Shown here piece by piece: positions 37,431 to 63,619 of a stretch of DNA of 64,000 nucleotides. Where the stretch lies: NCBI GenBank assembly GCA_016786465.1, contig JAEUWC010000026.1, positions 62,001 through 126,000 of the forward strand, in the 5' to 3' direction. The notes under the pieces are model-generated. The model did not search any database and was not told the origin of the DNA. It worked only from the letters and a program-made list of their open reading frames with translations. Position 1 is the first letter of the stretch, and each line of letters begins with the position of its first letter. The stretch comes from Bdellovibrionales bacterium. GTDB taxonomy: Bacteria > Bdellovibrionota > UBA1018. A program made the position numbers and the translations under genes.

Positions 37431-39238
37431 TCGCCGGAACCCCGTTTTTCTTACTGGCCCTTCTTTTCCCCTTTTTCGGAGCCATACTGCTTCAATTCTT
37501 GCGAGCCTTTCCGGAAAAAACAATCTACAGGACGGCGAAATCCGTCATGCTGATTCAAACCGCCTGGGTTTTTTTGTCACTCGCTTTTCCCCAAAAATTT
37601 CAGACCCATCTTTTCGTCTGGCATGACTACCATTTCGAAGTTTTGCTCGAATTGGACCTGACCGCAAAAATCTTCTGGGCGCTTGCAACCCTTCTAGGAG
37701 GGATCGTCGTGCGCTTCAGTTTGATTTACATGCATCGCGAGCCCGGCTATTCACGCTTTTTTTCGACGCTCTTTACTTTCCTTGGCGGGGTTTGGATTCT
37801 TGCGGCAGCCGGAAATTTGGACACATTCCTGATTGGTTGGGAAATTTTGGGAATTGCGTCTTTTCTTTTGATCGGATTTTACCGGCACCGCGCGCAGCCG
37901 GTACAGAATGCCGCCATGGTCTATTCCATTTACCGGCTTTGTGATGTGGGTCTACTTGCGGGTGCTTATCTCGAACATAGCGAACTTCGCGGAATGGGGT
38001 TCACCGAACTGATGGGCCCCTTGGGCGCCCAAGGTCTAGCGGCGCTTTCGGATGGAAATCTGTTTTTCATTTCAGTCCTTCTGATTTTTGCGTCGTTTGG
38101 AAAATCGGCTCAAGTACCCTTTAGTTCCTGGCTTCCGCGAGCCATGGAGGGCCCAACCCCTTCAAGCGCCATATTCTATGGTGCACTTTCCATCCACGCT
38201 GGCGCACTTCTGCTTTTGAGAACTTATCCGATTTGGAGCGCTTCCCAATGGGCGACGAATTTGATCCTCGTCGGAGGTGCGGTCAGCGCATTATTGGCTT
38301 CTGGCATCGGCCGAACCGTATCCAATATCAAAGCCCAAATCGCCTATTCTTCCATTACCCAGGTCGGAATCATCTTCATTGAAATCGCAATGGGCTGGAA
38401 AGACCTGGCTTTAGTCCACATCGTCAGTAACGCCTTCTTGCGATGCTATCAGCTTTTGGCTTCCCCGTCCGTCGTCGCCCATCTGCTGCGGGTTCAAGGA
38501 ACCCAAGAAGCAAAAGCTCGCGAACCCAAGCCGCGTAAAAATAGTGCCTTTCATTCGACGTCGTACGCCTTTCTGATGTCAGAAGCCTACCTTCAAGATT
38601 TGGCACGCCTGATCTTCCTTACACTTCCACAAAGGCTTTCTGGATGGTCGATTCGCCGCCCCTATGGAAGTTATCTGATTGGAATTTGCGTATTCGTATT
38701 GGCCTACGCGAAATGGGATTTCAAAATCGGCGCTGCTGTGGGGCTTTCACTGGCGCTGGCAATGGACGCGCTTTGGGATGCGACCCAAGGAAATGGATTT
38801 CAAGATACCGCTTCTTGCCGACGCACTTTCGACAAAACTTCGTTATCCAGCTTCACGTTTTCGATTTCAGTTTCGATGGCCTATCCTTTGGGATGGAAAC
38901 TCGGTGTACTTGAACTGCTTCCCTTTAGCGCCGGGATCATCTTTTGGTGGGTTGTCGCCCGCGTCGCTCTTTTAGGATTCAACAGGAATGAAGTCTACGG
39001 CCCCCCCTGGGTGGTTTATCCCCGCCGGTCGTTCGCGGCATTTATTTCAGTTCTTGGGCTCAGTGGATTTCCGATTTCAACCGTCTTTTTCGGAGAAGAT
39101 CTTCTGCTTCGTGAGATCACTAACGTCCGTCCATCTTTGGCTGTCGCGTTCACTGGAATCTTTATTTTGAACGGAATCGCACTGATCCAAAACTATACTC
39201 GCTTTTTCTTTGAACCCAATCATCCGCAAAAACAGTGA
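37427..39238 (+). CDS. dabB: DabB, NuoL/Mrp-type membrane subunit
   Basis: A 603-residue membrane protein with a dozen or more hydrophobic segments and the proton-conducting antiporter domain of complex I subunit 5. Visible family segments are LFTFLGGVWILAAAGNLDTF, IGWEILGIASFLLIGFY and SSWLPRAMEGPTPSSAIFYG. It supplies the ion-driven half of the DabAB complex. A basic, non-hydrophobic loop (EAKAREPKPRKNSAFHST) interrupts the antiporter domain after the SNAFLRCYQLLASPSVVAHL segment. The start may be the ATG at 37427 (ATGA overlap with dabA) or the one at 37421. A hairpin with a T-run follows. Confidence 0.87.
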   Translation: MIAGTPFFLLALLFPFFGAILLQFLRAFPEKTIYRTAKSVMLIQTAWVFLSLAFPQKFQTHLFVWHDYHFEVLLELDLTAKIFWALATLLGGIVVRFSLIYMHREPGYSRFFSTLFTFLGGVWILAAAGNLDTFLIGWEILGIASFLLIGFYRHRAQPVQNAAMVYSIYRLCDVGLLAGAYLEHSELRGMGFTELMGPLGAQGLAALSDGNLFFISVLLIFASFGKSAQVPFSSWLPRAMEGPTPSSAIFYGALSIHAGALLLLRTYPIWSASQWATNLILVGGAVSALLASGIGRTVSNIKAQIAYSSITQVGIIFIEIAMGWKDLALVHIVSNAFLRCYQLLASPSVVAHLLRVQGTQEAKAREPKPRKNSAFHSTSYAFLMSEAYLQDLARLIFLTLPQRLSGWSIRRPYGSYLIGICVFVLAYAKWDFKIGAAVGLSLALAMDALWDATQGNGFQDTASCRRTFDKTSLSSFTFSISVSMAYPLGWKLGVLELLPFSAGIIFWWVVARVALLGFNRNEVYGPPWVVYPRRSFAAFISVLGLSGFPISTVFFGEDLLLREITNVRPSLAVAFTGIFILNGIALIQNYTRFFFEPNHPQKQ

Positions 39239-44349: not shown

Positions 44350-45299
44350 TTTGCCGTATGGATCATCACGCGATCGCCGACTTGGATTCCGCGTGAATCC
44401 AAGATTTGATCGACTTGGGCTTCAGTCGAAACCCGGAAAACCCTTGAAGCACGTACCAGCGCGACGGCTTTGAACACCGAACAACTTGAATCCGTGTCTT
44501 CACGCTTGGCGTAGACTTCAAACTTTTCGCCTTCGTTCAGTTTGGCCTGAAGCCCCTGATCGAAAATCAAGGTACCCTGTTCGGCGTTCCATTCACGAAC
44601 GGTGGCCGACCAACCCAGACGTGCTGATTCTGCCGATTGCGCAAGGGCCTCGGTTCCTGCTTTCATGGCCGCGCGAAGGACTTTTCCGAACGGAGTATTG
44701 ATCACCAGCGATGGGCCCGTAGAAATCTGACCAAAGTCGATATCAAAAGAAAGTTCTCCGGAATAAGTGCGTTGGTCTTTTGAAGTTCGGGCAATCGCCA
44801 TGCAGCCGGATCGATTGCATTGATAAACCCCAAAATCCATTCCTAAAAGCCCCAACGTGGCCTTCACAGATCCCGAAACGCTTTGAACGACCGACGTTTC
44901 TCCTTGGGCCAGCGAATACCCCACGCGAACCCCAATCTGAGTCAGATTTAATTCAACCGTGGAAAGAGCCGCCCGAATTTCAATCCATTCATCGCAGCTT
45001 CCGACATCAAACCCTTGCGCACGACTGAAGGGCGCAAAAAACCCCGTTTCAGTGACCGCAGTTTCCAGGTACTGATTCAGGTCGTTTGAAAGATCAATTC
45101 GGTTTCCGCCGGGTAAAGTAAACGGAAGTGTGGCTACCGGCTTGAGGATCACGGGGCGAACGGGCCGCGCAGTTTTGGGCGTTTCCGCTGGCGGCGGCGT
45201 CGAATTTCCGGGGCGCTTACCTCCGGCGCCTTCGGCAGGCCCGATTCCCAGCAAAGCCGCCACGACCCAGGTCAGTAAACTTGATTTCTTAAAATTCAT
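44346..45299 (-). CDS. exported protein paired with the subtilisin-like protein
   Basis: A 317-residue exported protein (LTWVVAALLGIGPAEG signal) with a Pro-rich linker (NSTPPPAETPKTARPV). Residues about 57-90 (PFTLPGGNRIDLSNDL, then TETGFFAPFSR) resemble the start of the downstream protein and loosely recall CsgG-type outer-membrane secretion proteins, but this is not secure. Two Cys in YQCNRSGCMAIAR and a C-terminal GIQVGDRVMIHT strand are visible. It begins GGAG-CGTTT-ATG; that ribosome binding site lies in a strong inverted repeat. Confidence 0.7.
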   Translation of the reverse strand: MNFKKSSLLTWVVAALLGIGPAEGAGGKRPGNSTPPPAETPKTARPVRPVILKPVATLPFTLPGGNRIDLSNDLNQYLETAVTETGFFAPFSRAQGFDVGSCDEWIEIRAALSTVELNLTQIGVRVGYSLAQGETSVVQSVSGSVKATLGLLGMDFGVYQCNRSGCMAIARTSKDQRTYSGELSFDIDFGQISTGPSLVINTPFGKVLRAAMKAGTEALAQSAESARLGWSATVREWNAEQGTLIFDQGLQAKLNEGEKFEVYAKREDTDSSCSVFKAVALVRASRVFRVSTEAQVDQILDSRGIQVGDRVMIHTAK

Positions 45300-45302
45300 A
45301 AA

Positions 45303-45375
45303 CGCTCCGATGCTTCGCCAATCGTTTGGCGAAAAGCTGAACTTCCCAGCTTCTTACATGGAGCTTCTCGGAGCG
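45303..45375 (-). promoter_or_regulatory. mRNA hairpin masking a ribosome binding site
   Basis: In the transcript of the leftward gene, CGCTCCGA (45375-45368) pairs perfectly with TCGGAGCG (45310-45303), and the latter contains the GGAG of the ribosome binding site. Inside the loop a second perfect stem, TTCGCCAA-ACGA-TTGGCGAA (45333-45314), stacks close by. A competing pairing, AGCGC (45389-45385) with GCGCT (45376-45372), would take up part of the masking strand. This is the layout of a translational switch; its trigger is unknown. It occupies most of the 130-base gap after motB. Confidence 0.55.
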
Positions 45376-45429
45376 CTCACAGCGGCGCTTCAGGACTTTA
45401 AGACCGAGCGTTACGCTTTTATTGAGGAA

Positions 45430-46218
45430 TTATGGATTTTCGTACAGGTTATTCAGGATGATCACTTCGATTCGACGATTCGCACCGCGTGAATACGTGT
45501 CTTGAATCGAACCGGCCGTTTTAGGTTTCGCTATGGGTCGATAATGTCCATAGCCCGCAGCACCGATTCGAGCAGGATCAAGATCAAAGCGCTTCACCCA
45601 ATAGCGAACCACCCAAGTGGCGCGCGCTGCCGACAGTTCCCAGGAACTGGGGAACTGCGTTTTTGAAGCTTCGCCTTCGTCGGCATGTCCTTCGACGCGG
45701 ACCAGGCGGCGGGTTGCGCGAACGACGCGTGCAATTCGATCCAGGACAGGTCGAAGGTCTGCGCGAACTTCGACTTCGCCGGGATCGTAAAAGTCGCGCG
45801 CGTTCAGGCTGATCACTAAACCGCGCGAATCGTACTTCATGTCGGGCTTCGCCCCAGGTTCGGTAGTCGACGCTTCTAAATTGATCGATTCTTCCAGCTG
45901 ATCACGAATTTCTTGCATCGCGGGATCAGGGTCTTGCGACGTATTGGATTTTCCTGCCGGCAGCGAAATCACACGCCCACCCGGCGGTTCGGGTTGTTCA
46001 AATTGGTTGACGGTTTCGCCACCGCCTGCGCCCTGAAGGTCAATCGTACCCCCTGCAAATGCAGCGCGGATACTGGCAGCGACGGCCTTCATTTTTTCGG
46101 CGTCTTGTTTACTCATGGCAAAAAGCATCACGAAAGTTGCAAACAAAAGCGTGACGAAGTCGGCGTACGAAACTAGCCATCGCTCTAAGTTCACATGCTC
46201 GGGATGCTTTTTTTTCAT
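45430..46218 (-). CDS. motB: flagellar motor stator protein MotB
   Basis: A 262-residue protein with a short cytoplasmic start, one membrane segment (WLVSYADFVTLLFATFVMLF) containing the proton-binding D20, a plug/linker region and a C-terminal OmpA-type peptidoglycan-binding domain (VRVEGHADEGEASK, ELSAARATWVVRYWV, NRRIEVIIL). It anchors the stator to the cell wall and conducts ions with MotA. It follows motA after 14 bases. Confidence 0.94.
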   Translation of the reverse strand: MKKKHPEHVNLERWLVSYADFVTLLFATFVMLFAMSKQDAEKMKAVAASIRAAFAGGTIDLQGAGGGETVNQFEQPEPPGGRVISLPAGKSNTSQDPDPAMQEIRDQLEESINLEASTTEPGAKPDMKYDSRGLVISLNARDFYDPGEVEVRADLRPVLDRIARVVRATRRLVRVEGHADEGEASKTQFPSSWELSAARATWVVRYWVKRFDLDPARIGAAGYGHYRPIAKPKTAGSIQDTYSRGANRRIEVIILNNLYENP

Positions 46219-46232
46219 CTAGATCGGATTCC

Positions 46233-47012
46233 CTATTCTTTTGCGCTGTCTTCGGTTCTGCGCAGGTGTTCTTCGACGAAGACTTCCAGTTTTTCTTGCA
46301 AAAAGTGCGGGTTCAAACCTTCTTGAATGCCAACCACGCCCAGCTTGACGACTTCCTTGGCCACCATCCGCTGGGTGGCTTTGCGCTTGATCTTGGTGCC
46401 CCATGGAATCAGTAGCAAGTTGGCAATGCCGACCCCGTAGACGGTTGCGACGAACGCGACGGCGATACCGGCGCCTAGTTTGTCCATGCCCCCACCCAAG
46501 TTTTCCATGACGTGAATCAAGCCCAAAACGGCGCCGATAATCCCGATGGTGGGCGCGTAACCGCCCGCGCCTTCAAATACTTTTCCGGCTGCTTCTTCTT
46601 CTTCAAACGCCAGAAAAATTTCCGTGTCGATGATTTCTTTGACGGTGTTGGGTTCAAATCCGTCAATGACGTACTTGATCGTCTTTTTGAAAAGCGGATC
46701 CAAAATGGATTCACGCTGCCCTTCAACGGCCAAAACCCCTTCTTTACGAGCAATCGTCGCGATTCGAATGATTTCATCAATCAGCGGACGAACATCCATG
46801 TTGACGTTCTTGTAGATCACCCCGATCAGGCTGAAGGCCTTTTTCACGTCACTTTGCGGATAAGACAGAAGCATAGCGCCCAATGTGCCGCCGACCACAA
46901 TCAGTGCCGCCGTTCCTTGCATGATCGAAGAAATGTGGCCGCCTTCTAGAATTTGGCCGCCCAAGATCGATGAAATGCCCAGCAACGTCCCTATCAGTGA
47001 TGCTAAATCCAT
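46233..47012 (-). CDS. motA: flagellar motor stator protein MotA
   Basis: A 259-residue membrane protein with four hydrophobic segments, the charged cytoplasmic loop between segments two and three, and the typical GGYAPTIGIIGAVLGLIHVM and AVAFVATVYGVGIANLLLIP segments. With MotB it forms the torque-generating ion channel. It follows flbD after six bases, giving the transcript flbD-motA-motB, an order seen in many flagellated bacteria. Confidence 0.95.
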   Translation of the reverse strand: MDLASLIGTLLGISSILGGQILEGGHISSIMQGTAALIVVGGTLGAMLLSYPQSDVKKAFSLIGVIYKNVNMDVRPLIDEIIRIATIARKEGVLAVEGQRESILDPLFKKTIKYVIDGFEPNTVKEIIDTEIFLAFEEEEAAGKVFEGAGGYAPTIGIIGAVLGLIHVMENLGGGMDKLGAGIAVAFVATVYGVGIANLLLIPWGTKIKRKATQRMVAKEVVKLGVVGIQEGLNPHFLQEKLEVFVEEHLRRTEDSAKE

Positions 47013-48964: not shown

Positions 48965-49034
48965 ATCTGCGAATCGATTTGACCCAAGTGAACGCATGAA
49001 CTTTGCAGCATTCAATTCGGTTGGGGAGGTCAGG

Positions 49035-50105
49035 ATGGGTTGCACGCATCGTCTGCGCGCCTTAGGGCTCGCGCTTCTCGCGCTATCGATCGCCGCTTCC
49101 GGATGTTTTTCGACCGAAGCTTCCAAAAGCTCTTCGGCACAGAATACAGCTTCCGGCGCTGTCGCTTCTTCAAGCCAGGCTCTTACGGGTTCGATCCCAT
49201 CAGGAGCAAAGGCTGCAAAGATTGTTTTTCGCCAAGCTTTCCCACAAGGAAGCTTCGACCCTCCTCCTGCAATTGGAACACCCGCCGCCGTGGGCAGCGG
49301 TGCGCGCGCCATGCGCGTTTTCAACGCAGACGGATCTTTGATGGCCACAGGTGGACCGACGAATTCAAACTGGCCCAAGTGGTTGGCCAACGTTGAAATT
49401 GGAATCACCGGAAGCGCAAACGCACAGGGAACCAATCCCGATTGCGCACGCTTTTCAGCAGCGGGCGAAGACACCGCAACCACTTGCGATTGGGGCCAAG
49501 CCCTTTCGCCACCCGTTGCGGGTACGGCGGAACCGTGTGGCGCAGCACCTGGTCTTTACCGCGTATCCGAAATGGATTGCGCAAACACGGGTTATACTTT
49601 GGCCAATGGAAACGGCGGCCCAAACGACGCCGTGTACATTCGCGCAAGTTTCAGCCGAAACACCAGCTACTTGGGTTCGGGCGAAAACATCATGGTGGTT
49701 TTAGAATACGCGGCTTCGGCGTTGAATCCAGCACCGGCAAATCCGACCACCTGCTTCACAGGAAGTTTGTTTACGCCCACCAACACCGGTTGCGCTGACC
49801 AAGTTTGGCAGGCTTTTTTGAAACGCGACGGAAACGACGTGGTTCAGCCCTACTTGCTTTTGGTTCCGCCCCATTTTGCGCATATTTCGCAAGCCGCAAA
49901 CAGCAGCGGGATGGGAATCGTCACCAAGCAATTCTTCCTGCCTTTGGCGGCGGATTCGTCTTTGACCACTTTGCAGATCAGCCGAATCAAAGCACTGGCG
50001 ACAGGCGCAACTTTTCAAGCCGTCTGCAACGGTGCCGCAACCCCGGCAAACTCGGCGCTTTGTGTGGGCATGGTTTTTCACTCGATGACTTTCTATAGGA
50101 TGTAA
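49035..50105 (+). CDS. large-operon lipoprotein 1, unknown function
   Basis: A 356-residue predicted lipoprotein (ALLALSIAASGC, C24 lipidated). After a Ser/Ala-rich linker it is mostly beta-strand-like with paired cysteines. Its C-terminal part (NDAVYIRASFSRNTSYLGSG, then an FFLPLAADSSLTTLQISRI segment, ending MTFYRM) resembles the end of the next protein. The ATG at 49035 is chosen over 48996 because GGGGAGG stands five bases before it and it opens directly into a signal peptide. The stop and the next start share a base (TAATG). No known family recognised. Confidence 0.8.
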   Translation: MGCTHRLRALGLALLALSIAASGCFSTEASKSSSAQNTASGAVASSSQALTGSIPSGAKAAKIVFRQAFPQGSFDPPPAIGTPAAVGSGARAMRVFNADGSLMATGGPTNSNWPKWLANVEIGITGSANAQGTNPDCARFSAAGEDTATTCDWGQALSPPVAGTAEPCGAAPGLYRVSEMDCANTGYTLANGNGGPNDAVYIRASFSRNTSYLGSGENIMVVLEYAASALNPAPANPTTCFTGSLFTPTNTGCADQVWQAFLKRDGNDVVQPYLLLVPPHFAHISQAANSSGMGIVTKQFFLPLAADSSLTTLQISRIKALATGATFQAVCNGAATPANSALCVGMVFHSMTFYRM

Positions 50106-53100
50106 TGAAACTAAACAGAATTAGGATTCAGACAAATAGCGGAAGAAAGGTTCCTGGCAAAAGTGCCTGGAACACCGCCGTTTTTTGCGTCTTGATTTCA
50201 GGAAGCCTGACCGGTTGCTACGACGCCAAGAAGACCAACCGTTCGACGACTTCGACCACGACCGTTGCTTCAGAATACGAACTGGGAATGAAGGTCGTCT
50301 TTCAGCACGAATCTTTTTATTCACTGGTGGAACCGCAAAGCGGAACCAGTTGCGCCGGGGATGCTCGCACTTTCTATAAGGCTTGGAACCATCCTGCGTC
50401 CGCAGGCGGCACACCACCGACGACTACGACCTTCCCTTCTTCAAGCTACGACGTGACCCAAACGCAAAAGCCCAGCTGGATCAAAAACGTCGCAGTCGAT
50501 TTAACGGATTCGGCGGCCCAGATTCCTGCCAACCTTTCAAAATCCTGTTCCCTTGGCGTTTCAAGCACGCTTCCGCCAGTTTCAACTTGCGCCACTTTTG
50601 ATTACGGGTCCGTGAACGGAATTCCCGCAACGCTTTCGGGCGCCGTGATTCTTTTTGGCGGCCAAACCGACGTCAACAGCGTCAGTCCTTCGCAAAGCTG
50701 CGGAATGGTTCAGGCGCTAGGTGCCGAAAACTTCTGTTCGTCGACGATGCATGCTTTAGGAATCGATACTCTTTCCGCATCCACTTCGCTGACGACTTCG
50801 GGAAATTCAAATCCGTTGACGCCGGGACTATTGGGGACCTCGACGCAAAATGATTCGATTTCAAACTGGGTGAATCTGACCCAGCTTGCAGGTTCGTCTG
50901 CAACGGTTCCGCCGCAATTGTCATCAGCGAATTTGGCGTATTCTTCCGAAATGGGAAAATTGATTTTGTTTGGTGGGATGTCGACCGTATCCAGCTTGGG
51001 CGCAGGCACTGCAACAACGGGATCCGATTCAGCGGACGTCTGGACCTATGATCTAGCGACTCAGGCGTGGACTCGGCAGACTCCGCCTGCGAACTTAAGC
51101 GTTGAAGTCTACAACATGATCGATCAAGTCCCAGGCGGCTACGATTTTTATCCGCGTACTTTGGGTGCTCGCGCAAACTTTGGATTCATTTCGGTTCCGG
51201 GCTTGGGCCTTCAAACGATGACCCCTGGCGATGCTAGCGGTGGCTTGTTGGCTGTTTCAGGAATTCCGGCTTACACCAACTTAAATACCATCGACACGAC
51301 TGAACGCATCGTTGTGGTGGGCGGCAATCTGCCTTCGCGAGTTTCAGTGGGATCGATGAAATTCAATCCCACTTTCGGCCCCGAATTGATCGATCTTCAA
51401 GATCCTGAAAACGCGATTTCAGGTGTGGCTCAATACGTTGAAAGTTTTCACACCCAATGGATGTCCAATTCAAACCTCAGTTCACAGCTGGGCCCCGAAC
51501 TGATCACGGAAGAATGGACCAACATCGGTGCTGCGCCTGCTCGTCGTGTTTCTGCGACCAACCAAATCGCGTCGGGGCAGTTTGTTGTGGCCACTGGATT
51601 CAATTTCAATTTTCCAAACACCATGGCGTCACCTTCGGCTTCACCTAGCCCTGTCGGACTTCGAATCGGAACTCGCACCGACACGCCGGGCGCGTCACCG
51701 ACTCCGACTCCGGTTGCAGCACCCCGATACACGATCGGACAGATGCTTTTGCATCCCGACACTTTAACCGGAATGGACCAGTACCCACTGGATTGGCGTC
51801 AAGCGACCGAAGATACAGTCGCCCCCGTTAACCCCAACCAAATCATTCCCGAAGTCGGCGGCGCTTCTGTTCTTCCAGGTTTTAACCTTTTGGCCAACGA
51901 TATCGTGATCGTCGGTGGAAGCACTTGCCGCGACTATATTAATGATGCTTCAGTTCAGACCCCGGTCTGCCTTTTTGGTGAATCGGGTTACGACGACGAT
52001 ATGAACACGACGACTCCGCGCTTGACGGTGGATTCGCATCGTTACTTTCGATTGGGCAGCTTGCCTTTGACCAAAAGTTCGCTTCCGCACGTTGCGGGTG
52101 TTCCGAATTATCAACTTCCCGCAAATTTGGGCATGGCCGGAACACCACCGAAGCGCGCAGGAATGGCGTCGGCCCGCGGACAGGATTCCAATGGCAACGT
52201 CATCAATGTTTACTGGGGTGGAATGTCGGCTGCGACTGATGTGGGAAGTGCGCCGGCGCGGGACCAGGTGCACGTCCTTTATAATGCTGGAACTTTGGCC
52301 GTTCCCGTTCCGACTTGGCTGAACTTGGATGCTCCAAACCCGAAACCTGCTGCGCTGACGAACGCGGCGATGGTCTTTAGCCACACGACTGGGAAATTCT
52401 ACCTTTTTGGCGGCCTGGCCACGACCAGCGGATTAGCCACGATGGATGAAACCTGGGAACTGACCCTTTCAGGAACCTGCACATCATCCGCCCCCGTTTG
52501 CGTTCCGACCTGGCGAAAACTTTCACCGACCTGTTTTCCTAACTGCCCGGGCAAACGTCGGTCTCACAAGATGGTCGAAGTGAACTATGCGATGAAAGTC
52601 GGCTTGAACGTCGACCCCGCGACGCATAAGCCGGATTGCAGCGATTCGGCGAATCCGTGTTCTTTTGGTATTTTCATGATGGGAGGATCGCCAGACGGTT
52701 TCCAACTTTTGGATGATCGCTGGATGTTTGATCCGACAGCCGCCAACGGAAATGGCCATTGGCAGCGCGCGATGGCGATTCCCGCGCGTCACTCGTCGCA
52801 TATGGCGACGGTCGATCTTTATGTTCCAAGTTCAGATCGCCGTTACAAACGCGCATTGGTCTTTGGCGGCGAAATGGGACTTCAAGATCCTTTTTACACC
52901 GTCAGCGGAGAATTCTTTGTTCCGCAAACTTTGGGCGACACCTGGATCTATGATCTTGAAACCAATCAATGGCATCGTGTCAGGCTTTTGGGTCAGGGCT
53001 ACACCACCAGCGTTTCAGCTTCCAGCGAAGCGGAACTTCGCCAAAGCTATATTACGGATCCGACCAACGTGGCCGCCGCTGCTCGCTTTAACGAACTTTC

Positions 53101-54577
53101 AGCTTTGACGCCGCCAGCGCTGGCGGGCGGGGTCATGGTGACACGAACTTTCCCAGGGGCCACCGCATCGGCCGCGACACCGCTTGAACCGCTGAAAGTT
53201 CCCGAAGTCTTCTTGTTTGGCGGGCGCAAGAAAGACGGAAGCTATCTGCCTTTGACTTCGGTTTACAAATTCTGCATGGGAACGGGCGGCGAAAACGACG
53301 TCAACGCACCTATTTCTTCAAGTGGAACGGACGACGCGTCCTGCGATCACTATGATGCAACCGACAACCCAAATTCACCGTACCCCACCACGGATTATGT
53401 CGGACGCTGGCTTTTGAAATCACCTGCCGTCACCGGACTTTCGACGGCATCGCAAAGCTTTCAAGGCGCGGGTACTTACGACCCGACTCGTGACCGAATC
53501 ATTCTGGTGGGCGGACGGTCTTCGAATGCTGCCGTCACGCACACCACTGGGCTTGAAACCACGGGCTTTGGTGCTGGTTCAGTTCAGGTTTTGGAATACA
53601 CACCGCCTTCGCGAACTTCGACCGCGGCCACAGCGGCTGAACGAAATGGCGCGTGGACAGCGATTGGCAACTGCACGCCGACGACCGGAAGTCTTTCGGT
53701 TCCGACAGGCCGTTACGGACACACGTTGACCTATGATGGTGCTTCTAACCAACTGGTTATGACCGGCGGTTACGACCAATCCGGCGCGCTTTTGGCTTCG
53801 ACCTTGGATTACGCCATTCAACCAGGACGTCAGTACCTAAGCCCTGAAGTTTGGACCGCGAAGTATTATCCGTTTTTGGTCGGTGGCTATTCGATTACAG
53901 TGGGTGATCAAAACACGGCGCCTTCGACTGTGACTTTTACGCCGCCGGCAGCGGGCTGCTACGTTTGGGTCAAAAAGACAGTCTTTGGAAATTCGATTGA
54001 TGCGACAACGACTCAGCCGCCTTTGACCGGCGTTGCACACGCGGCCGCCGTTTCGCTTCCAGCTTCCGGATACAACACGGGTTACTATTCTTTCTTTGAT
54101 GACCGCTGCACCAACGCAAACCCAGTCATCACTGGCGATCCGCTTTTAAGCCGTGAAAACGCCGGCGGCGTTTACTTTGACATCGACCGATCCAAACTGG
54201 GAGCAAGCGAAAATCTGCTTCTGCACCTGACCTTTATTCCGCTAGGAACCCGTAACCTTCGCCCAGACGGCGCAAGAATCACGCAGAAAGAATCTGCCGT
54301 CATGGAAGTCCATCTGGTTCGCACCGGCGAATCGCAGTCGACTTTGATCAATACGCTTCAACCAAGGTACGTGCAGTACGCGGAAACGCAATCGTCTTAC
54401 CCTCAAGTCGTGAACCGTCTTGCGGTCATGTCGCCGCCTACCGGCGAAATTCGTCAGGAACAAATCGTCATTCCTTTGACGCAAAGTCCAGACATTGACC
54501 GCATCCGAATCAACCGCCAAAGCGGCAGCGCGATCCTGATCGACGCTAGCCTGTATCGGATGGGAGGTTCGCAATGA
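50105..54577 (+). CDS. large-operon lipoprotein 2, 1490 residues with Kelch-like propeller repeats
   Basis: A 1490-residue predicted lipoprotein (FCVLISGSLTGC). The central part has repeated Kelch-type units with a double glycine and a later Trp: GKLILFGGMS..DVWTYDLATQAWTR, GKFYLFGGLA..ETWEL, RALVFGGEMG..DTWIYDLETNQWHR, RIILVGGRSS, QLVMTGGYDQ. These make one or more beta-propellers. A C-terminal domain (GGVYFDIDRSKLGASENLLL, IDRIRINRQSGS, ASLYRMG) is shared with lipoprotein 1. A Ser/Pro/Thr-rich linker (PSASPSPVG, ASPTPTPVAAP) lies near residue 520. Its size suggests a surface structure or adhesin. The gene overlaps both neighbours. Confidence 0.85.
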   Translation: MKLNRIRIQTNSGRKVPGKSAWNTAVFCVLISGSLTGCYDAKKTNRSTTSTTTVASEYELGMKVVFQHESFYSLVEPQSGTSCAGDARTFYKAWNHPASAGGTPPTTTTFPSSSYDVTQTQKPSWIKNVAVDLTDSAAQIPANLSKSCSLGVSSTLPPVSTCATFDYGSVNGIPATLSGAVILFGGQTDVNSVSPSQSCGMVQALGAENFCSSTMHALGIDTLSASTSLTTSGNSNPLTPGLLGTSTQNDSISNWVNLTQLAGSSATVPPQLSSANLAYSSEMGKLILFGGMSTVSSLGAGTATTGSDSADVWTYDLATQAWTRQTPPANLSVEVYNMIDQVPGGYDFYPRTLGARANFGFISVPGLGLQTMTPGDASGGLLAVSGIPAYTNLNTIDTTERIVVVGGNLPSRVSVGSMKFNPTFGPELIDLQDPENAISGVAQYVESFHTQWMSNSNLSSQLGPELITEEWTNIGAAPARRVSATNQIASGQFVVATGFNFNFPNTMASPSASPSPVGLRIGTRTDTPGASPTPTPVAAPRYTIGQMLLHPDTLTGMDQYPLDWRQATEDTVAPVNPNQIIPEVGGASVLPGFNLLANDIVIVGGSTCRDYINDASVQTPVCLFGESGYDDDMNTTTPRLTVDSHRYFRLGSLPLTKSSLPHVAGVPNYQLPANLGMAGTPPKRAGMASARGQDSNGNVINVYWGGMSAATDVGSAPARDQVHVLYNAGTLAVPVPTWLNLDAPNPKPAALTNAAMVFSHTTGKFYLFGGLATTSGLATMDETWELTLSGTCTSSAPVCVPTWRKLSPTCFPNCPGKRRSHKMVEVNYAMKVGLNVDPATHKPDCSDSANPCSFGIFMMGGSPDGFQLLDDRWMFDPTAANGNGHWQRAMAIPARHSSHMATVDLYVPSSDRRYKRALVFGGEMGLQDPFYTVSGEFFVPQTLGDTWIYDLETNQWHRVRLLGQGYTTSVSASSEAELRQSYITDPTNVAAAARFNELSALTPPALAGGVMVTRTFPGATASAATPLEPLKVPEVFLFGGRKKDGSYLPLTSVYKFCMGTGGENDVNAPISSSGTDDASCDHYDATDNPNSPYPTTDYVGRWLLKSPAVTGLSTASQSFQGAGTYDPTRDRIILVGGRSSNAAVTHTTGLETTGFGAGSVQVLEYTPPSRTSTAATAAERNGAWTAIGNCTPTTGSLSVPTGRYGHTLTYDGASNQLVMTGGYDQSGALLASTLDYAIQPGRQYLSPEVWTAKYYPFLVGGYSITVGDQNTAPSTVTFTPPAAGCYVWVKKTVFGNSIDATTTQPPLTGVAHAAAVSLPASGYNTGYYSFFDDRCTNANPVITGDPLLSRENAGGVYFDIDRSKLGASENLLLHLTFIPLGTRNLRPDGARITQKESAVMEVHLVRTGESQSTLINTLQPRYVQYAETQSSYPQVVNRLAVMSPPTGEIRQEQIVIPLTQSPDIDRIRINRQSGSAILIDASLYRMGGSQ

Positions 54578-56661
54578 TTTTCAGTTTCTGGGCAAAAACT
54601 GCCGAAAAGACATCGGGTATGAAAGCCCTTTTGAACCAAGCCTTCGCTTTAATCGCACTTGGCGTATTTGCTACCGGTTGCACAAACCTTGGCAGCAATG
54701 CGCGCGCACGTTCAGGAACTTCAACAGTCACGACCACCGACGGAAGTTCCTATGGCCTTTCGATTTCGCAGGTCCTACTTTCACCCCTGGATGCATCTTC
54801 TGGCACAATCACCATCGTCGGCACAAACCCCGGTGACCTGGGCGCGGCTTGCGACCCAAGGCTTCAGCCTGCTGAAATCGGTGAAGACGGCGAAGAAAGC
54901 ACGGAAACGAAAACCCCTGGTGAACTTTGCAGCTGCACTTACCGCTACATTCGCAACGGCACCACTGGCGCGTCGGATGAACAGTTTAGCCAGCAGGCGA
55001 CCTATGCCGAAAGCAACATCGTACGCTGTTCGTTTCCTTCCACTTCGATCTTGGCGGGAATTCCTTACGTCGATATTCAGGTTCGGAAAATCAAAGACAA
55101 TATTTTCAGTAATCCCATTCGCTATAATCTAACGGGCGGGGAATTCCTGGATCCGACCAGCCCCAATTCTTTTGTCCAGGTCAATCGCTACCAGTGCCGC
55201 GACCGCGTTCGTCTGGGGCTTGGGTTTCAACAAGTCGGCGACGGAGCCGAATGGGCGCCGTACAATCCGATTCTAAGTGAAGACCCAAAGCTCAGTTACC
55301 CATTGAACTTTTACTATACGAACTATTTTCAATCGATGCAGGCTTTCATCGCGTTGAATTCCGCTAGTGGCGGTTCAGGTGAAGAAGGCGGCGATGGCGG
55401 GGGCGGCAATACCAACCCCTGGATTTGTCCGACCGTCCCAAATGATCCCAACGTTGGAATGCAACTGGGTCTTTTCAGTGTTTCACCTGACAGTGGCGGA
55501 AGCATTCGGATCTTCCCGCCCACGGGCAGCGTCTTTGACCGATCGACTTTTTTCTTAGCTAGAAAAAAATCGGGAATCTTCACGCTTCCAGTGAACGCCT
55601 ATGGCGCACCTGGAATTCCAACCAGTGATTTAGGAAATCTAGGGCCACAGGTTGAAACCGATCTGGGATCCCTGGGCTATGGCGTTCCGCCGATTGTGCA
55701 AACCAACGGCACGGAAACTTGCCCAGACACCAGCGTCCCGATTCCTGCAGGTTTCCGCTGGGTCAAAGTCTGGCAATTCCGCGCATCTTTAAGCCCAAGG
55801 CAACAACCGGATCCAAACGGACGCTTCGCCCGAAGCGCGATCATGTGCAACCCTGGGAATGCGATCCCTAGTCCTACTGCTAGCGGAACACCTGGATTTG
55901 TTTTTGGAAACTGCGAAGGCGGTACTGAACTTCCCGTGGATGATTCACGCTTTGCTTCACGGGCGTACATCCCATCAAGTACAGACAGCCAAAATCCGGT
56001 TACCCAGAACGCTTGCTTGGAACTGAATCACCCGAACTTTGCCACCTGGCAGACGCCTTGTAATGACCCGTCAAACGGTGGCCCAGGTTCGGGTGCTGGT
56101 TGCACGGCAACCAATACCGGAACTCAGAAACCTGCCTATGCTTCCATGGGATTGGCTCTGGCTTCTGACATTTGGTATTTTCTTCAAGCGCCTCCGACTG
56201 GAGCTAGCCCAAGCGCCGGCGGATCCACGGGATCCAACGGAATCTGCGGCGGCGGCGGAAACCTAGACAATATGAATCTTTGTTCGGCGTCCCCTGCAGC
56301 TGGATACCCGACGTTCAACCAAGCAATCCCTTTTAGTACCGAAGTGAACTTCGCGCCATTGGACCCTGCGGGCCAACAGCGCTATGATTTTGTTTACACG
56401 GTTTCGCCGACCACGGTGAACTTGAACGAAATGCTGAATCCGGGAAGCACGATTTCACTGCCTTACGTCCCGTATCGGTTTTATCCAGGCGGATGTGTTT
56501 CAGGCGATCCGAACAATCCTGCGTTTGCCGGTGATTGTTCTGCTGACCAGAAAATTTCATACGGGATCAAAATTCACGATGTGGGACAAAACGGGGACAG
56601 TACCCCAGGTAGCACCGGGCGTCCGCCGGTCTTTCCGGTCTGCGCGCTTCAACCGATTTAA
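54574..56661 (+). CDS. large-operon lipoprotein 3, cysteine-rich, unknown function
   Basis: A 695-residue predicted lipoprotein (FALIALGVFATGC). GGGAGG lies six bases before this ATG, which overlaps the previous stop (ATGA), so it is preferred over the internal ATG at 54619. The N-terminal 220 residues parallel lipoprotein 4: a C-x-C-x-YRY motif (ELCSCTYRYIRNG), a following VRCSFP, and FVQVNRYQCRDRV. A Gly-rich stretch (GGSGEEGGDGGGG) divides the protein. Many cysteines suggest disulfides outside the cytoplasm. I recognise no family. Confidence 0.8.
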   Translation: MIFSFWAKTAEKTSGMKALLNQAFALIALGVFATGCTNLGSNARARSGTSTVTTTDGSSYGLSISQVLLSPLDASSGTITIVGTNPGDLGAACDPRLQPAEIGEDGEESTETKTPGELCSCTYRYIRNGTTGASDEQFSQQATYAESNIVRCSFPSTSILAGIPYVDIQVRKIKDNIFSNPIRYNLTGGEFLDPTSPNSFVQVNRYQCRDRVRLGLGFQQVGDGAEWAPYNPILSEDPKLSYPLNFYYTNYFQSMQAFIALNSASGGSGEEGGDGGGGNTNPWICPTVPNDPNVGMQLGLFSVSPDSGGSIRIFPPTGSVFDRSTFFLARKKSGIFTLPVNAYGAPGIPTSDLGNLGPQVETDLGSLGYGVPPIVQTNGTETCPDTSVPIPAGFRWVKVWQFRASLSPRQQPDPNGRFARSAIMCNPGNAIPSPTASGTPGFVFGNCEGGTELPVDDSRFASRAYIPSSTDSQNPVTQNACLELNHPNFATWQTPCNDPSNGGPGSGAGCTATNTGTQKPAYASMGLALASDIWYFLQAPPTGASPSAGGSTGSNGICGGGGNLDNMNLCSASPAAGYPTFNQAIPFSTEVNFAPLDPAGQQRYDFVYTVSPTTVNLNEMLNPGSTISLPYVPYRFYPGGCVSGDPNNPAFAGDCSADQKISYGIKIHDVGQNGDSTPGSTGRPPVFPVCALQPI

Positions 56662-56667
56662 GGAACT

Positions 56668-59103
56668 ATGAAAACGAAGAATGATCTGTTCAAAAACTTG
56701 GGAATCGCAGCCGCAATGGCCATCACCGTTGCTGCGTGCACCAATATTGGCGGAATCAAATCCAATCGTTCTAGAACCAACCCCACCACCCTGGGGCTGA
56801 CTTCGTCCACATATACGATTTCTTCGATCAACGTCGATGATCCAGAACCTGTCGTCAGCCCAAGTCCTGGGGCAACTTCAGATCCCGTTTCATTTACGAT
56901 TTTCTTTGACCAGGCCCGTTCGGCGACCCCACTGACCACGCCTTGCAAAAGTGGCGACAAAAGCTGTTATTGCTATTACCGCTGGACCGAAACCGGATTC
57001 AGCAACGGCCAAGCCGTCAGTTACGACCGCGAAGATTTTAGCCCCATCGATCAAGTTCTACCGTACATGGTCGTTTGCGATGGGCCACAGAACTATGCCA
57101 ACGAAATTGACGTGGGCACGATCGTAAACGTCACGGTCAAGTCAGCTGAAAACAATTCAACGACCTTTACATCCAACACCTATCAGTACCGCCGAACGTC
57201 AGGAACGGGAATGGGCAGCTTAGGTGATTTCCAGGATGCGGTCGGCGCCAGCTTTGCCAATATCCATCGCTATTCTTGCTACGAAACCCGAAGAACCGTT
57301 CGAAAGATTTGGAACGAAGTTCAACAGATCGAAGGGCAAGACGACAATTCATCAACCACGAACGTCTTGATGGCTTCTGCATTTTGCTCGGGGACCAAAA
57401 GCACGGCCGGATGCAAGTTAGCTCCGGCAACACTTGATTTTTCGACCCAGTCGTATTGGTACAATATGTACATCCGCAACACGGATCGCGGTCAGATCAA
57501 CGCATCGACCATCATCGATGAAGCAGGAACCGGAATGGTCTGCCCAAAAGTGAAAGAAGTGCTTTGGGCGCAGTCGCCGGACTTCTATCCTTTAGATACG
57601 TCTTTTGCACTTTCGGTGACCCGCACCGCCCAGTTTCGCGTCGGTGTGGAAGCCTTTAGCAAATTGAAGATCGAAAACGACTTTGGAAGCCAAGACACTT
57701 CCTGCAATGAATCCGCAGACGCAGGTGCGGGCGCTGGCGCAGCCGGCGGCGGCGAAAACAAGGGCGATAAGCTATTGACCAAATCGTGTATCGGATTTGC
57801 AGCTAAACCCAGCCCAGCAGGCGCATGTCCGACGATTCGCTTAGCCAACGGAACGCTGAAGCCGACTTATCGCCTTCGTCGCTTCATTACACTTTACCCG
57901 CTTCGTTACCACACCGATGGAACGGTTCGGGATGATTCACAGCCGCGCGATTATGTTTACGTCTTGGATCGTCCAGTTTCTGCCCCCGGTATGGATCCGA
58001 CGCGTCCCTACACGATGCGCGGTCCGAAGCCCTGCCCTTTTGCGTTCTATGACGAAATGGGGGTCTTGGGTGATCCAATGGATCCGAACTATGCGGGCGG
58101 AATGCCTGGATATGCCGCGACCAATTTTCCGGGTTGGAACGGTACGAACGTGGATGGAATGGAATTTCCGTTCATGGATCGTAAATCGATGGTTCCTTCA
58201 CAAGATCGGAATGCGAATTCCTGTTCCGCAGCGATTCCGCTTTTGAACGATTCCAAATCCGTCTGGTCACTGACCACGATCAATCGAAAGAACCCCGTTT
58301 ACAAACGCCTCTTCGTTCGCCCTCAGCAAGCGTGGGCCCCTCATTACGAAGAAGACACCGCTTTTGAAGCCTGCGCGCCGGCGCCTGACGTGCCCAAGGA
58401 CCCTCCGATCCATTTCGCAAAAGATCCTGCTACAGGAAACGTCAGCTATTGCGCAGAAGCGTATCCGACCCAAAATCCGTTTGTGTCAAAAGTCGATACG
58501 CCACAAGCGCCAAGCATGAACATTCCAGGCTATGTTTCACCCTACACTTCACACGTGGTGAAAAATTCGGCCAGTGCCAGCTGCACCAATTCAAGCCTAG
58601 ATTTAAGTTCGATCGTTTCGAAGTATCCGCCGAATCCATCGCTGGGATCTTCGACTTTCTGCGCCCCAGGAACGCAAGCGACGGTTGGGCCCGCCTGGCA
58701 CCCAAACAATTACCTGGTGGATTCGAATACTCCGCGCGCTGGAAACGTTTGCAGCAACGGCGGAAATTATGATGCGCTATCCAACACCTGCTACTATTGC
58801 GCACATCAGACTTGCGATCGCACCGTTTCAGCGCCAAGCAGTGCCGCTTGGCCGTTCTTCCCGCTTTTGGCCCGCCCCGAACGGGTGGAACAGGCAATCA
58901 TGTCGGATACGACTTACAATTGCACCGTCACCTATGACAACGGCCTTGGAAAAATGGGAAAGGTAACCCCCAACCAAGGTTGCTGCGGAACAGCGGTCCA
59001 AGTTTGGACGGGGTTTGACAGTTCGGCAGCTCCGAATATCAACCGTGCGAACACCACTGCACACCTCGAGCCGGATCAACAGTGCCTCATTCCCCAGTAT
59101 TAA
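56668..59103 (+). CDS. large-operon lipoprotein 4, cysteine-rich, unknown function
   Basis: An 811-residue predicted lipoprotein (AAAMAITVAAC) with AAGGA before the ATG, six bases after lipoprotein 3. The N-terminal part repeats the pattern of lipoprotein 3 (KSCYCYYRWTETG, MVVCDGP, FANIHRYSCYETRRTVR), so the two are paralogues. The C-terminus is especially rich in cysteine (NTCYYCAHQTC, NQGCCGTAVQVW, PDQQCLIPQY). A Gly/Ala run (ADAGAGAGAAGGGENKG) lies near residue 350. The end overlaps the pseudouridine synthase gene by 22 bases. Function unknown; probably a cell-surface component acting with the three proteins before it. Confidence 0.8.
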   Translation: MKTKNDLFKNLGIAAAMAITVAACTNIGGIKSNRSRTNPTTLGLTSSTYTISSINVDDPEPVVSPSPGATSDPVSFTIFFDQARSATPLTTPCKSGDKSCYCYYRWTETGFSNGQAVSYDREDFSPIDQVLPYMVVCDGPQNYANEIDVGTIVNVTVKSAENNSTTFTSNTYQYRRTSGTGMGSLGDFQDAVGASFANIHRYSCYETRRTVRKIWNEVQQIEGQDDNSSTTNVLMASAFCSGTKSTAGCKLAPATLDFSTQSYWYNMYIRNTDRGQINASTIIDEAGTGMVCPKVKEVLWAQSPDFYPLDTSFALSVTRTAQFRVGVEAFSKLKIENDFGSQDTSCNESADAGAGAGAAGGGENKGDKLLTKSCIGFAAKPSPAGACPTIRLANGTLKPTYRLRRFITLYPLRYHTDGTVRDDSQPRDYVYVLDRPVSAPGMDPTRPYTMRGPKPCPFAFYDEMGVLGDPMDPNYAGGMPGYAATNFPGWNGTNVDGMEFPFMDRKSMVPSQDRNANSCSAAIPLLNDSKSVWSLTTINRKNPVYKRLFVRPQQAWAPHYEEDTAFEACAPAPDVPKDPPIHFAKDPATGNVSYCAEAYPTQNPFVSKVDTPQAPSMNIPGYVSPYTSHVVKNSASASCTNSSLDLSSIVSKYPPNPSLGSSTFCAPGTQATVGPAWHPNNYLVDSNTPRAGNVCSNGGNYDALSNTCYYCAHQTCDRTVSAPSSAAWPFFPLLARPERVEQAIMSDTTYNCTVTYDNGLGKMGKVTPNQGCCGTAVQVWTGFDSSAAPNINRANTTAHLEPDQQCLIPQY

Positions 59104-60107
59104 GCGAAACGCTTGAGCTGACTTTGGAAGGACCCTTGGACCGACTGGACGTCGCGTTGCTTAGCGCGCTCAAGGCTCAAGAAGGAATTTTCACAAGCCT
59201 GTCACGCGCGCAGCTTAAGTCGTGGTTTCACGAAAAAAGAATTCGGCAAACGGCTCCTCATCGACGAACGGCGCAAGCCAGTGATTCGCTAGGAACGGGA
59301 CAATCGGTTCGACTGGAAATTCTTTACCGCAAAGACGAACTGGAAATTCGCGCAGAAGGATTGATCGCAAAAAAAATCGAACTTCCCGTGATCTTTGAAG
59401 ACCCAAGCCTTTTGATTGTTCACAAACGCAGCGGGGTTCCCAGCGTTCCTCAGGCCCCTGACGAATCAGAAACGGCCGTGGGTTTTGCCCTGGCCCGAAC
59501 ACCTGGAATCTTTAAAGTCGGAACCGAAGACGGACCTGGTCGAACCGCACTTGAATCCGGCGTCCTTCACCGGCTAGACACCGGCACCAGCGGGCTTTTG
59601 GTTTTCGCAAAAAACAATCCTGCGTTTTCCACCCTTCGACAGGCTTGGAAAGCGGGCGATGTTCGAAAGAAATACCGCGCACTGGTTCGGCTAGAAACGG
59701 AACTGGATTTGGATCAGGTCCCGCGCGAAATCCGATTCGACCTAGGTCATGACCCAAAATCAAAAAAAAAGATGCTGGCACTGACTTCTGAAGATCTGAA
59801 AATTCGTGGCAAACCATTGCCCGCGGTCACCCTGATTCATCAAGTCCGACCCATCCCTAAACGAACTGGACCTTTCTTTGACTACGACCTTGAAATTGAA
59901 ATTCAAACCGGGGTCATGCACCAAATCCGCTGCCACTTGGCGTCCATCGGGCTTCCGATCCTGGGCGACCGGGTCTATGGAAATCAGCCAGCTTCCCGTC
60001 TTTTTCTGCATGCCTGGCGCTTAAGCCTTCCCCATCCCGAATCCCAGGGGCTTCGCATCGACGTCGAAGCAATGCTGCCGTGGGTCACGGCGCCTGTTGC
60101 CCCTTGA
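59082..60107 (+). CDS. RluA-family pseudouridine synthase
   Basis: A 341-residue protein with an S4-like N-terminal part (LDRLDVALLSAL, LSRAQLKSWFHEKRI) and the RluA catalytic domain: LLIVHKRSGVPSVPQAPD, HRLDTGTSGLLVFAK with the catalytic Asp, VRKKYRALV and HQIRCHLASIGLPILGDRVY. It isomerises uridine in rRNA or tRNA; RluD-, RluC- and RluA-type targets cannot be separated here. The start is a GTG inside the end of lipoprotein 4 (22-base overlap). Confidence 0.9.
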   Translation: MPHSPVLSETLELTLEGPLDRLDVALLSALKAQEGIFTSLSRAQLKSWFHEKRIRQTAPHRRTAQASDSLGTGQSVRLEILYRKDELEIRAEGLIAKKIELPVIFEDPSLLIVHKRSGVPSVPQAPDESETAVGFALARTPGIFKVGTEDGPGRTALESGVLHRLDTGTSGLLVFAKNNPAFSTLRQAWKAGDVRKKYRALVRLETELDLDQVPREIRFDLGHDPKSKKKMLALTSEDLKIRGKPLPAVTLIHQVRPIPKRTGPFFDYDLEIEIQTGVMHQIRCHLASIGLPILGDRVYGNQPASRLFLHAWRLSLPHPESQGLRIDVEAMLPWVTAPVAP

Positions 60108-60961: not shown

Positions 60962-62488
60962 CTAAACAAATCTTTCCGTGAATTCTCCGCCGGCGTACGT
61001 ATAGACTTTTTTCTGTCCGTCGACGTCGGTTTCGACATTCACGGGTCTGCGCCAGATATCTGAAAGCGCACGCATACTTTCACGCGCGTACTTGACATCC
61101 AAATCCAGGCCTTGATGTTTGTGCCAAAGAAGAAGTTCGCCCTTGTTCTGGAAATTTCCGTCCATCACGTAAATCATGGGCTGCCCACGATTGGTCATCG
61201 AAAATAAAAGCTTTTCTTTGACCTTTTTAAAATCGCGATCCGCGATTTCATACTGATTCGTGCGGCGGTTGAATGCATAGGTGTAAAGCTTGAATCGTTC
61301 AACGAATTCTTCGGTCAAATATTCGTCAATAAAAGTCACGTCATTGCAAACGCGGCGGACTTCAAAAATTTTCTGGCGGCCCTGCCCAAGCTTGGTATCC
61401 CACCGTGCCTTGGCCACCATGTCGTCGCATTCGTCGTATTCTTTTCCAAACTTGCCACGGTTCCACCGGTCTTCGATGTCTCGAAAAAGTTCGATCCCGA
61501 TCTTGTATGGATTCACGCGCCCGGGCTGCATGACCAGCGTTCCTGCGTGGCTATCTGCAAAATCGATGATTTCAGAATCTTTCAACGCTTTTTCGGTCAT
61601 GATTTTCGAGTGCCAGTAGCTAGCCCACCCTTCGTTCATGATCTTGGTCTGAATCTGTGGTGCAAAATAATAGGCTTCGTCGCGCACAATCGAAAGCACG
61701 TCCTGTTCCCAGGTTTCCAAGGGCGCATTTTGAAGCAAGAAAGCCAAAACGTCTTTTTGCGGTTCTGAAGGATGGCGCTTGGCCCTTTTCGCCATTTCTT
61801 CGGCCTTCTTCTTTTGTTCTTCGACAAAATCGGGCGGATTAATAAACTTGTCCATGTACGAACGGTCTGAACGAAGCTTTCCCGTTTCCTGCGAACTGGC
61901 CGGATCAGGATCTTTGTCGGTGACCGACTTTCCTTGGGTAAAGGGCAAGTACGGATCAATCAGGTTTTCCAGGGTCAAGCAGCGGTCAATGAAAGTTTCC
62001 ACGCGGTCTTGACCATACTGGTCCATGTAATCGCGGATACGGACGGCGTGGTTTGCCATCTGGTCCAGCATTTTGCGGTTGGTTTTTGAAAACCAATAAT
62101 TGTTCTTAAAAAAGTCCACGTGCCCGTAAACGTGCGCCATGACGATCTTCTGATCGACATAACTATTGCTTTTCATCAAGTAGGCGTACGAAGGGTCGGT
62201 GTTGATCACCATTTCATAAATTTTTTGAAGACCCCATTCATAGCCCTTGGACATCTGGTCGTAATCCATTCCAAAGCGCCAGTGCGGGTAACGAACGGGA
62301 AACCCGCCCAAGGAAGCCAACGAATTGATCTGGTCATAGTCGACCATTTCAAAGACGGTTTCGAAAAAATCCAATCCAAAGCCGCGCGCGTATCCTTGGA
62401 TTTCGTCGCGAAGCTTCGCCAGTTCCGGGGTCAGGTTGGTGTCGGATCCCATGGCTGCCATGCTATTGTCTTTTCCCGCCTGCGGCAT
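60962..62488 (-). CDS. spoVR: SpoVR-family protein
   Basis: A 508-residue protein of the SpoVR/YcgB family: IQGYARGFGLDFFETVFEMV, PVRYPHWRFGMDYDQM, IVMAHVYGHVDFFKNNYWFS and MNEGWASYWHSKIM. Its biochemical function is not established; the family is tied to spore cortex formation in Bacillus and to stress and starvation in other bacteria. It lies nine bases after the YeaH gene. Alternative ATGs occur at codons 10 and 13; no clear ribosome binding site decides. Confidence 0.92.
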   Translation of the reverse strand: MPQAGKDNSMAAMGSDTNLTPELAKLRDEIQGYARGFGLDFFETVFEMVDYDQINSLASLGGFPVRYPHWRFGMDYDQMSKGYEWGLQKIYEMVINTDPSYAYLMKSNSYVDQKIVMAHVYGHVDFFKNNYWFSKTNRKMLDQMANHAVRIRDYMDQYGQDRVETFIDRCLTLENLIDPYLPFTQGKSVTDKDPDPASSQETGKLRSDRSYMDKFINPPDFVEEQKKKAEEMAKRAKRHPSEPQKDVLAFLLQNAPLETWEQDVLSIVRDEAYYFAPQIQTKIMNEGWASYWHSKIMTEKALKDSEIIDFADSHAGTLVMQPGRVNPYKIGIELFRDIEDRWNRGKFGKEYDECDDMVAKARWDTKLGQGRQKIFEVRRVCNDVTFIDEYLTEEFVERFKLYTYAFNRRTNQYEIADRDFKKVKEKLLFSMTNRGQPMIYVMDGNFQNKGELLLWHKHQGLDLDVKYARESMRALSDIWRRPVNVETDVDGQKKVYTYAGGEFTERFV

Positions 62489-62497
62489 TTAGGGGCA

Positions 62498-63619
62498 TCA
62501 TTTGCCCTTCCCCAAGAAATCTTTGATCGACTGTAAAATTCCGTCCTTGTTTTCGATCTTCGAAAGAATGACGGAATCATGTTCGGTCCCAAAGAATTCT
62601 TTCAGATCTTTATAGAACTGACCTGATCCATAGCGGCTTTCGACCTGGCCGTAGCAAAACGTGTTCACCAACGGCAAAAGTTCCTGCTTCAAAAGATCCA
62701 AGCAAAGTTTCGTGTCTTCGCCTGACCAGTTGTCGCCGTCTGAAAAATGAAACGGATAAATGTTCCAGTCTTGCGGCGGATAATCATTATCGATGATCTT
62801 TTGGCAAAGCTTATAAGCCGAAGAAATCAAGGTTCCGCCGCTTTCGCGGGTTTTGAAAAAAGTCTGTTCGTCGACTTCGCGCGCGGTCGCGTCGTGAATG
62901 ATGTAACGGGTTTCAATGCCTTTGTACTGTGAACGAAGCCAGGTATCGATCCAGAAGGCTTCGGTCCGAACAATTTCTTTTTGCTCGTCGCCCATCGAAC
63001 CCGACACGTCCATCATGTAAATGATGACCGCATTGTTTTCATGACGAACGTCGGTTTTCCAAGACCGGTACCGCATGTCGCTTTTGATCGGCACGATCAC
63101 GGGCTTATCGGGGTTATAGGTTCCCGATGCGATCTGGCGACGCAAAGTTTCTTTGAAAGTGCGCTTGAAATGACGAAGGCTGTTCGGCCCTTGGTTCGCA
63201 ATCCCGGTGTATTTTTCCGTTTTTGCGCGAACCGTGTTGTGACCTCGCGGTTCAATCTTGGGCAGTTCCAACTGTTCGCCCATGATTTCGGCCAATTCCT
63301 GCAAAGTCAGATCGACTTCTAATCCGTGTTCGCCTGACTGGTTTCCGGCCTGACCTTCTCCGCCTTCACCTTCTTGCGGATCACCCGAACCCCCGACCGG
63401 ATCACCGGGCTGGCCATCCCCTTGCCCCACCCCACCGGCTTCTTTATCCCCGTACTTAAAATGCGGGATTTCGATCTGAGGAAGCGGAATGGACACCATG
63501 TCCTTTCCCTTGCGGCCGATCATTTCGCCGTGGGTGATGTACTTTTTCAGATCCTGCTTGATCTTGCCCTTCACGATGTTGCGGAAGCGGGCATGATCGC
63601 GGTGGATATTGTAGATCAT
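62498..63619 (-). CDS. YeaH/YhbH-family protein with a von Willebrand-like domain (DUF444)
   Basis: A 373-residue protein of the YeaH/YhbH family. A Gly/Asp/Gln-rich low-complexity stretch (residues 60-95, [16 protein letters not shown]) precedes a conserved part with [14 protein letters not shown], a MIDAS-like [18 protein letters not shown] and [11 protein letters not shown]. The family is encoded with the PrkA/YeaG kinase and acts in stress responses of unclear mechanism. It stands between the kinase (68-base gap) and SpoVR. Confidence 0.92.

Follow-up and report, generated by a model that had tools for sequence, protein, structure and literature searches.

Prey recognition in predatory Bdellovibrionota has been described in Bdellovibrio. 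There, mosaic adhesive trimer (MAT) fibres recognise prey; they are phage-fibre-like and carry changeable binding tips (PMC10769870). In Vibrio, the large putative lipoprotein TasL is proposed to serve target-cell contact. It would provide selective cell-cell contact in T6SS killing (PMC9040878).

We analysed a stretch of 64,000 nucleotides, called here the window, from the genome of an uncultured bacterium of the Bdellovibrionota order UBA1018 (proposed Bdellonasales). It contains four consecutive genes, P1 to P4. The likeness to MAT fibres and to TasL is a functional parallel, and homology is not claimed in either case. MATs resemble phage fibres, whereas P1 to P4 are predicted lipoproteins without a fibre family match. 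TasL is a single protein tied to a T6SS, whereas P1 to P4 form a four-gene operon without adjacent secretion genes.

Two more comparisons concern single domains. P2 shares repeated Kelch motifs with the Kelch and galactose-oxidase central-domain propellers (PF13418, PF24681 and PF13415). However, its propeller is nested in another lipoprotein domain at a fixed site, and several lineages lack it. The beta-sandwich topology predicted for P1 resembles that of the galactose-binding-like jelly rolls of Eph receptors, gingipain K3, CBM22 and the alginate and chondroitin CBMs. P1 differs from them in having no Pfam or PDB profile match, and its identity and TM-scores to them are low. Surface lipoprotein complexes are a known kind of structure. 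The protein families described here are absent from the libraries searched.

Gene layout and neighbourhood

A first-pass annotation of this DNA had described four consecutive lipobox genes at 49035-59103, coupled by overlaps of 1-4 bases or a six-base gap. The open reading frames, all on one strand, the lipobox cysteines and the junctions are borne out (Table 1). The junctions are a 1-base overlap (P1/P2), a 4-base overlap (P2/P3) and a 6-base gap (P3/P4). An in-frame ATG at 48996 is an alternative start for P1 and would add 13 amino acids. All four genes are single-copy in the window's genome, where P2, P3 and P4 each match only themselves and P1 has one match.

Table 1. Features of the four-gene cluster and its borders (positions in the window).
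Feature	Position	Strand	Description
Gap 5' of P1	48628..49034	+	407 bp; likely promoter site
P1	49035..50105	+	356-aa predicted lipoprotein; single jelly-roll domain (predicted); lipid Cys24
P2	50105..54577	+	1490-aa predicted lipoprotein; P1-like core with nested Kelch propeller; lipid Cys38
P2 core, N-terminal half	50219..50605	+	Residues about 39-167; corresponds to first half of P2 homologues without propeller (~340 aa)
Kelch propeller insert	50606..54034	+	Residues about 168-1310; Pfam Kelch models above cut-off
P2 core, C-terminal half	54035..54574	+	Residues about 1311-1490; corresponds to second half of short P2 homologues
P3	54574..56661	+	Predicted lipoprotein of 695 aa, rich in Cys (18 in all); lipid Cys36
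P4	56668..59103	+	Predicted lipoprotein of 811 aa, rich in Cys (26 in all); lipid Cys24; P3 paralogue over first half
RluA-type pseudouridine synthase gene	59082..60107	+	3' of P4; 22-bp overlap with P4

No sigma-70-type promoter matched in the gap before P1. The scans for sigma-70 promoters and terminators gave fewer matches than in shuffled sequence. At the other end, many of the order's families have the RluA-type gene next to P4. It is probably co-transcribed with P4, yet it probably stands outside the system.

The order P1-P2-P3-P4 on one strand is found in the window and in 16 other genomes. A chance origin of the cluster is unlikely, because homologues share order and strand in these 16 genomes. 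The flanks change among families. Upstream are motA/motB in the window's family and an aminopeptidase M17 and an HrpB helicase in family f2; family f6 has an acyl-CoA dehydrogenase as a neighbour. The homologues are mostly linked, with two exceptions: P1-P2 and P3-P4 lie about 20 kb apart in genome G025 and on different contigs in G051. No conserved secretion or pilus gene was found beside the operon at the loci compared across families, where the neighbours are housekeeping genes and variable. This agrees with the first-pass annotation, which had seen no such gene alongside.

The conserved membrane protein gene 407 bases upstream of P1 (47335-48627, + strand) encodes a 430-aa protein without a Pfam match, which has membrane helices at its N-terminus and a sizeable soluble portion. 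Eight loci of the window's family, the window included, retain this gene in the interval from motA/motB to P1. Divergent from the operon, a gene at 44346-47012 (- strand) adjoins motA and motB; its match to the FlgT C-terminal domain is weak and below the cut-off. Just 3' of the operon region lies a SpoVR and DUF444 (YeaH-type) pair, a conserved stress module (60962-63619, - strand). Farther upstream, a DabA-type inorganic carbon transporter gene is followed by a Mrp/NuoL-like partner (34926-39238, + strand).

Dependence on the flagellum and coupling to the Tad/Kil system were both considered and rejected. FliG is present in 55/55 genomes of the order, operon-less ones included. Likewise, the Tad marker RcpC is present in 53/55, among them all seven genomes without the four genes. 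It means that neither machine requires the operon.

Two paralogue pairs and a nested propeller

Profile comparison resolves the operon into two old pairs of paralogues: P1 and the P2 core form one, P3 and P4 the other. The profiles of P3 and P4 align with an hhalign probability of 99.0% over 320 columns, and the homology covers their first halves. This agrees with the first-pass annotation, which had called them cysteine-rich paralogues. The other pair was missing from that annotation: P1 and the short P2 forms align at 98.7% over 268 columns. Cross-pair controls between unrelated profiles gave 17.5% and 5.4%. In direct BLASTP, P3 and P4 match weakly (E 0.006), and P1 and P2 give nothing, so that only profiles join them. 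These weak or null single-sequence matches indicate that the duplications are old. Many of the 18 and 26 cysteines of P3 and P4 fall in invariant columns. The P4 of genome G045 (L040:12371-15229) carries an insertion of roughly 170 amino acids after YPTQNDN.

The Kelch-type protein already recognised among the four is P2. Several Pfam Kelch models exceed their curated cut-offs in it: PF24681 with 61.6 bits (cut-off 50), PF13418 with 48.4 (21.6) and PF13415 with 40.9 (22). By pattern and by eye, P2 has about 11-12 Kelch-like repeats, which would be enough for two propellers. More precisely, P2 is a P1-like protein of about 340 amino acids with a Kelch region of about 1150 nested at one fixed site. 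The boundaries in the window are CATFD on one side and TGYYSFFDDRC on the other. In every propeller-bearing orthologue where both motifs could be located, the Kelch region lies between CATFD and TGYYxxxDxxC. A second Kelch protein occurs in the window's genome (open frame of 851 aa, G000:C1:31039-32706; loci L154, L155 and L157-L159).

Short proteins of about 340 amino acids stand in the place of P2 in the operons of families f2 and f3, and likewise in genomes G038, G039, G040, G044 and G045. At the propeller site, these short forms carry a few residues or a linker rich in Pro and Thr. The C-terminal half of the P2 core shares up to 53% identity with them. In the divergent family f6, the P2 of two genomes shows Kelch-like repeats. 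On a tree made from P4 alone, with many forks unresolved, the short form needs three changes and is nested at least twice inside propeller-bearing lineages. An early propeller that was lost repeatedly would fit this tree; gains are an alternative.

Apart from the Kelch models, the searches were negative. P1, P3 and P4 have no family above cut-off in Pfam or NCBIfam, and no known family in the PDB sequences. The family alignments (A1, A3 and A4 against Pfam, A2 against NCBIfam) gave nothing convincing. In Pfam, neither P1 nor the short P2 members match a CBM family or one of F5/8 type. P2 has no phmmer match in PDB sequences at E <= 1. None of the four window proteins matches a fibre or MIDAS/VWA-type domain in Pfam or NCBIfam. 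No single known system matching all four was found. A search of the available literature for Kelch lipoproteins in Bdellovibrio and for prey-recognition lipoproteins in Bdellovibrionota found no paper.

Structure models were made for P1 and P4. The AlphaFold2 model of P1, built with 15 orthologues, has a pLDDT of 79 and a pTM of 0.78. In Foldseek against the PDB, it comes closest to the ligand-binding domains of Eph receptors (E 3e-5), followed by the gingipain K3 adhesin domain (E 5e-4) and alginate- and chondroitin-binding modules (about 1e-3). Identity is about 10%, and the TM-scores are low: by query they are 0.2-0.3, and by target they reach 0.5 at most. Eph receptors, gingipain K3 and these CBMs all present ligand-binding beta-sandwiches of the galactose-binding-like type. 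The model makes a jelly-roll fold class likely for P1, but no particular type of ligand. Considering the low TM-scores and the absence of a sequence family, P1 may work like such a domain, and the likeness is taken as an analogy. The P4 model is weak (pLDDT 67, pTM 0.65) and has no PDB match at E < 0.001.

Predicted envelope location and occurrence in the order

The lipobox cysteines are C24 in P1 (AASGC), C38 in P2 (SLTGC), C36 in P3 (FATGC) and C24 in P4 (TVAAC). Among orthologues with a covered N-terminus, lipoboxes were detected automatically in 19/23 for P1, 16/21 for P2, 21/26 for P3 and 30/36 for P4. Most of the remaining ones show a lipobox by eye; the P1 of genome G024 (L037) has no lipobox cysteine. 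Aspartate at position +2 retains lipoproteins in the inner membrane of E. coli. It occurs in 0/86 detected lipoboxes, although this rule comes from E. coli and may not hold in Bdellovibrionota. From these signals we infer that the four are outer-membrane lipoproteins. The many invariant cysteines of P3 and P4 would fit an oxidising extracytoplasmic location.

The genera JAMPXJ01 and CAIRTR01 are assigned to UBA1018 of Bdellovibrionota at the ranks of class, order and family in a 2026 paper, which introduces the names Bdellonasia/Bdellonasales and infers a predatory lifestyle of the class from its Kil/Tad system (PMC13200544). We searched 369 Bdellovibrionota genomes (55 of the order and 314 others) with profiles of P4, P1 and the P2 core. 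P4 is present in 46/55 genomes of the order, and P1 and the P2 core in 40/55 each; all three gave 0/314 elsewhere in the phylum, including three genomes of the same class outside the order. P3, searched within the 55 genomes of the order, is present in 40. When 84,980 species genomes were scanned for a P4 pattern, 41 loci came up, by label nearly all Bdellovibrionota-type or unclassified MAGs. One of the 41 carries, by title alone, a Nitrosovibrio label.

One or more of the four genes occur in 48/55 genomes of the order. The other seven have none. Since several of these seven are close to completeness, the lifestyle does not require the set. Presence of P1/P2 and of P4 is associated (40/2/6/7; Fisher p 2e-4, uncorrected for phylogeny). 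P3/P4 without P1/P2 occur in six genomes, one of them with clean synteny (G046), and P1/P2 without P3/P4 in two, both incomplete. This asymmetry suggests P3/P4 as the base and P1/P2 as the dependent part. In G046 (L044), the interval from the upstream membrane-protein gene to P3 has no P1/P2, and the flanking synteny is intact. A second, free-standing P1 homologue lies off the operon at L145:4801-5802 (G033, contig C70).

The first-pass annotation had proposed a dedicated surface complex. Its dedicated part is well supported: a fixed gene order despite changing neighbours, joint presence and absence, and confinement to one order indicate a co-evolving gene set. Three points hint at the surface or adhesive part: a ligand-binding fold is predicted for P1, P2 contains the nested Kelch propeller, and the class is predicted to be predatory.

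Possible functions of the gene set

We read P1 to P4 as outer-membrane lipoproteins that are specific to this lineage and act jointly in the envelope, most likely as a surface recognition or attachment complex, with a probability of about 0.4. After export and lipidation, the four proteins would reside in the outer membrane. There, P3 and P4, disulfide-rich paralogues, would make the base. P1 and the P2 core, paralogous galactose-binding-like jelly rolls, would serve as the ligand-binding parts, and the Kelch propeller would project from one P2 loop as a large, evolutionarily dispensable head. P1 and P2, the latter often with this head, could then bind a glycan or a protein on another surface. 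We infer the outward exposure, the physical complex, the glycan or protein ligand, and prey or another cell as the target. No transporter exporting lipoproteins to the surface was identified, which counts against this reading. Its stronger form is doubtful: an undescribed cell-recognition complex that would define one order of probable predators, with a paralogous base, two jelly-roll receptors and a removable Kelch head altering the target range.

The proteins could instead face the periplasm, since default Gram-negative sorting leaves outer-membrane lipoproteins directed inward. They would then be a scaffold, for example round the polar flagellum or the pointed anterior pole, and bind nothing outside. 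The operon does adjoin motA/motB and the weak FlgT-like gene in the window's family, and a thick polar flagellum and a pole shaped like a bottlenose are described for the class (PMC13200544). However, families f2 and f3 have no motAB adjacency, and the universal FliG indicates that flagella do not need the operon. Ligand-binding folds and long Ser/Thr-rich tethers also suit exposed proteins better. Such a scaffold is rather unlikely. The same folds could speak for nutrition. Galactose oxidase combines a Kelch propeller with an N-terminal CBM32 sandwich, and the P1 model has jelly-roll matches of CBM type, so P1/P2 might capture or process glycans, the galactose-oxidase-like Kelch domain acting on polysaccharide, in a role like that of Sus-type lipoproteins. 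But no conserved glycoside hydrolase, TonB-dependent receptor or sugar transporter lies beside the operon, and several lineages without the propeller retain the rest of the set. A nutritional role is rather improbable.

A protective surface coat, S-layer-like or a matrix anchor without a specific ligand, would account for proteins that are very large, disulfide-rich, near-universal in the order and moderately diverged. Yet they lack a self-assembly motif and match no S-layer family, the weak P4 model has no convincing match to a coat protein, and the P1 fold indicates ligand binding. We rank this coat among the improbable explanations, below the nutritional one. Finally, the separable pairs of G025 and G051 could be taken as four independent lipoprotein genes clustered by chance. 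The synteny largely refutes this: order and strand are kept in 17 genomes despite diverged sequences and changed flanks, with a joint phyletic pattern. Such a reading is hardly credible.

To our knowledge, little besides genome sequences is available for predatory Bdellovibrionota beyond the small number of cultured genera. The four genes are nearly universal in this order, undetected elsewhere in the phylum and outside the family libraries. This makes them a candidate for the order's distinctive surface. The presence or absence of the propeller offers a natural comparison, in which one can ask whether the P2 head sets the target range.
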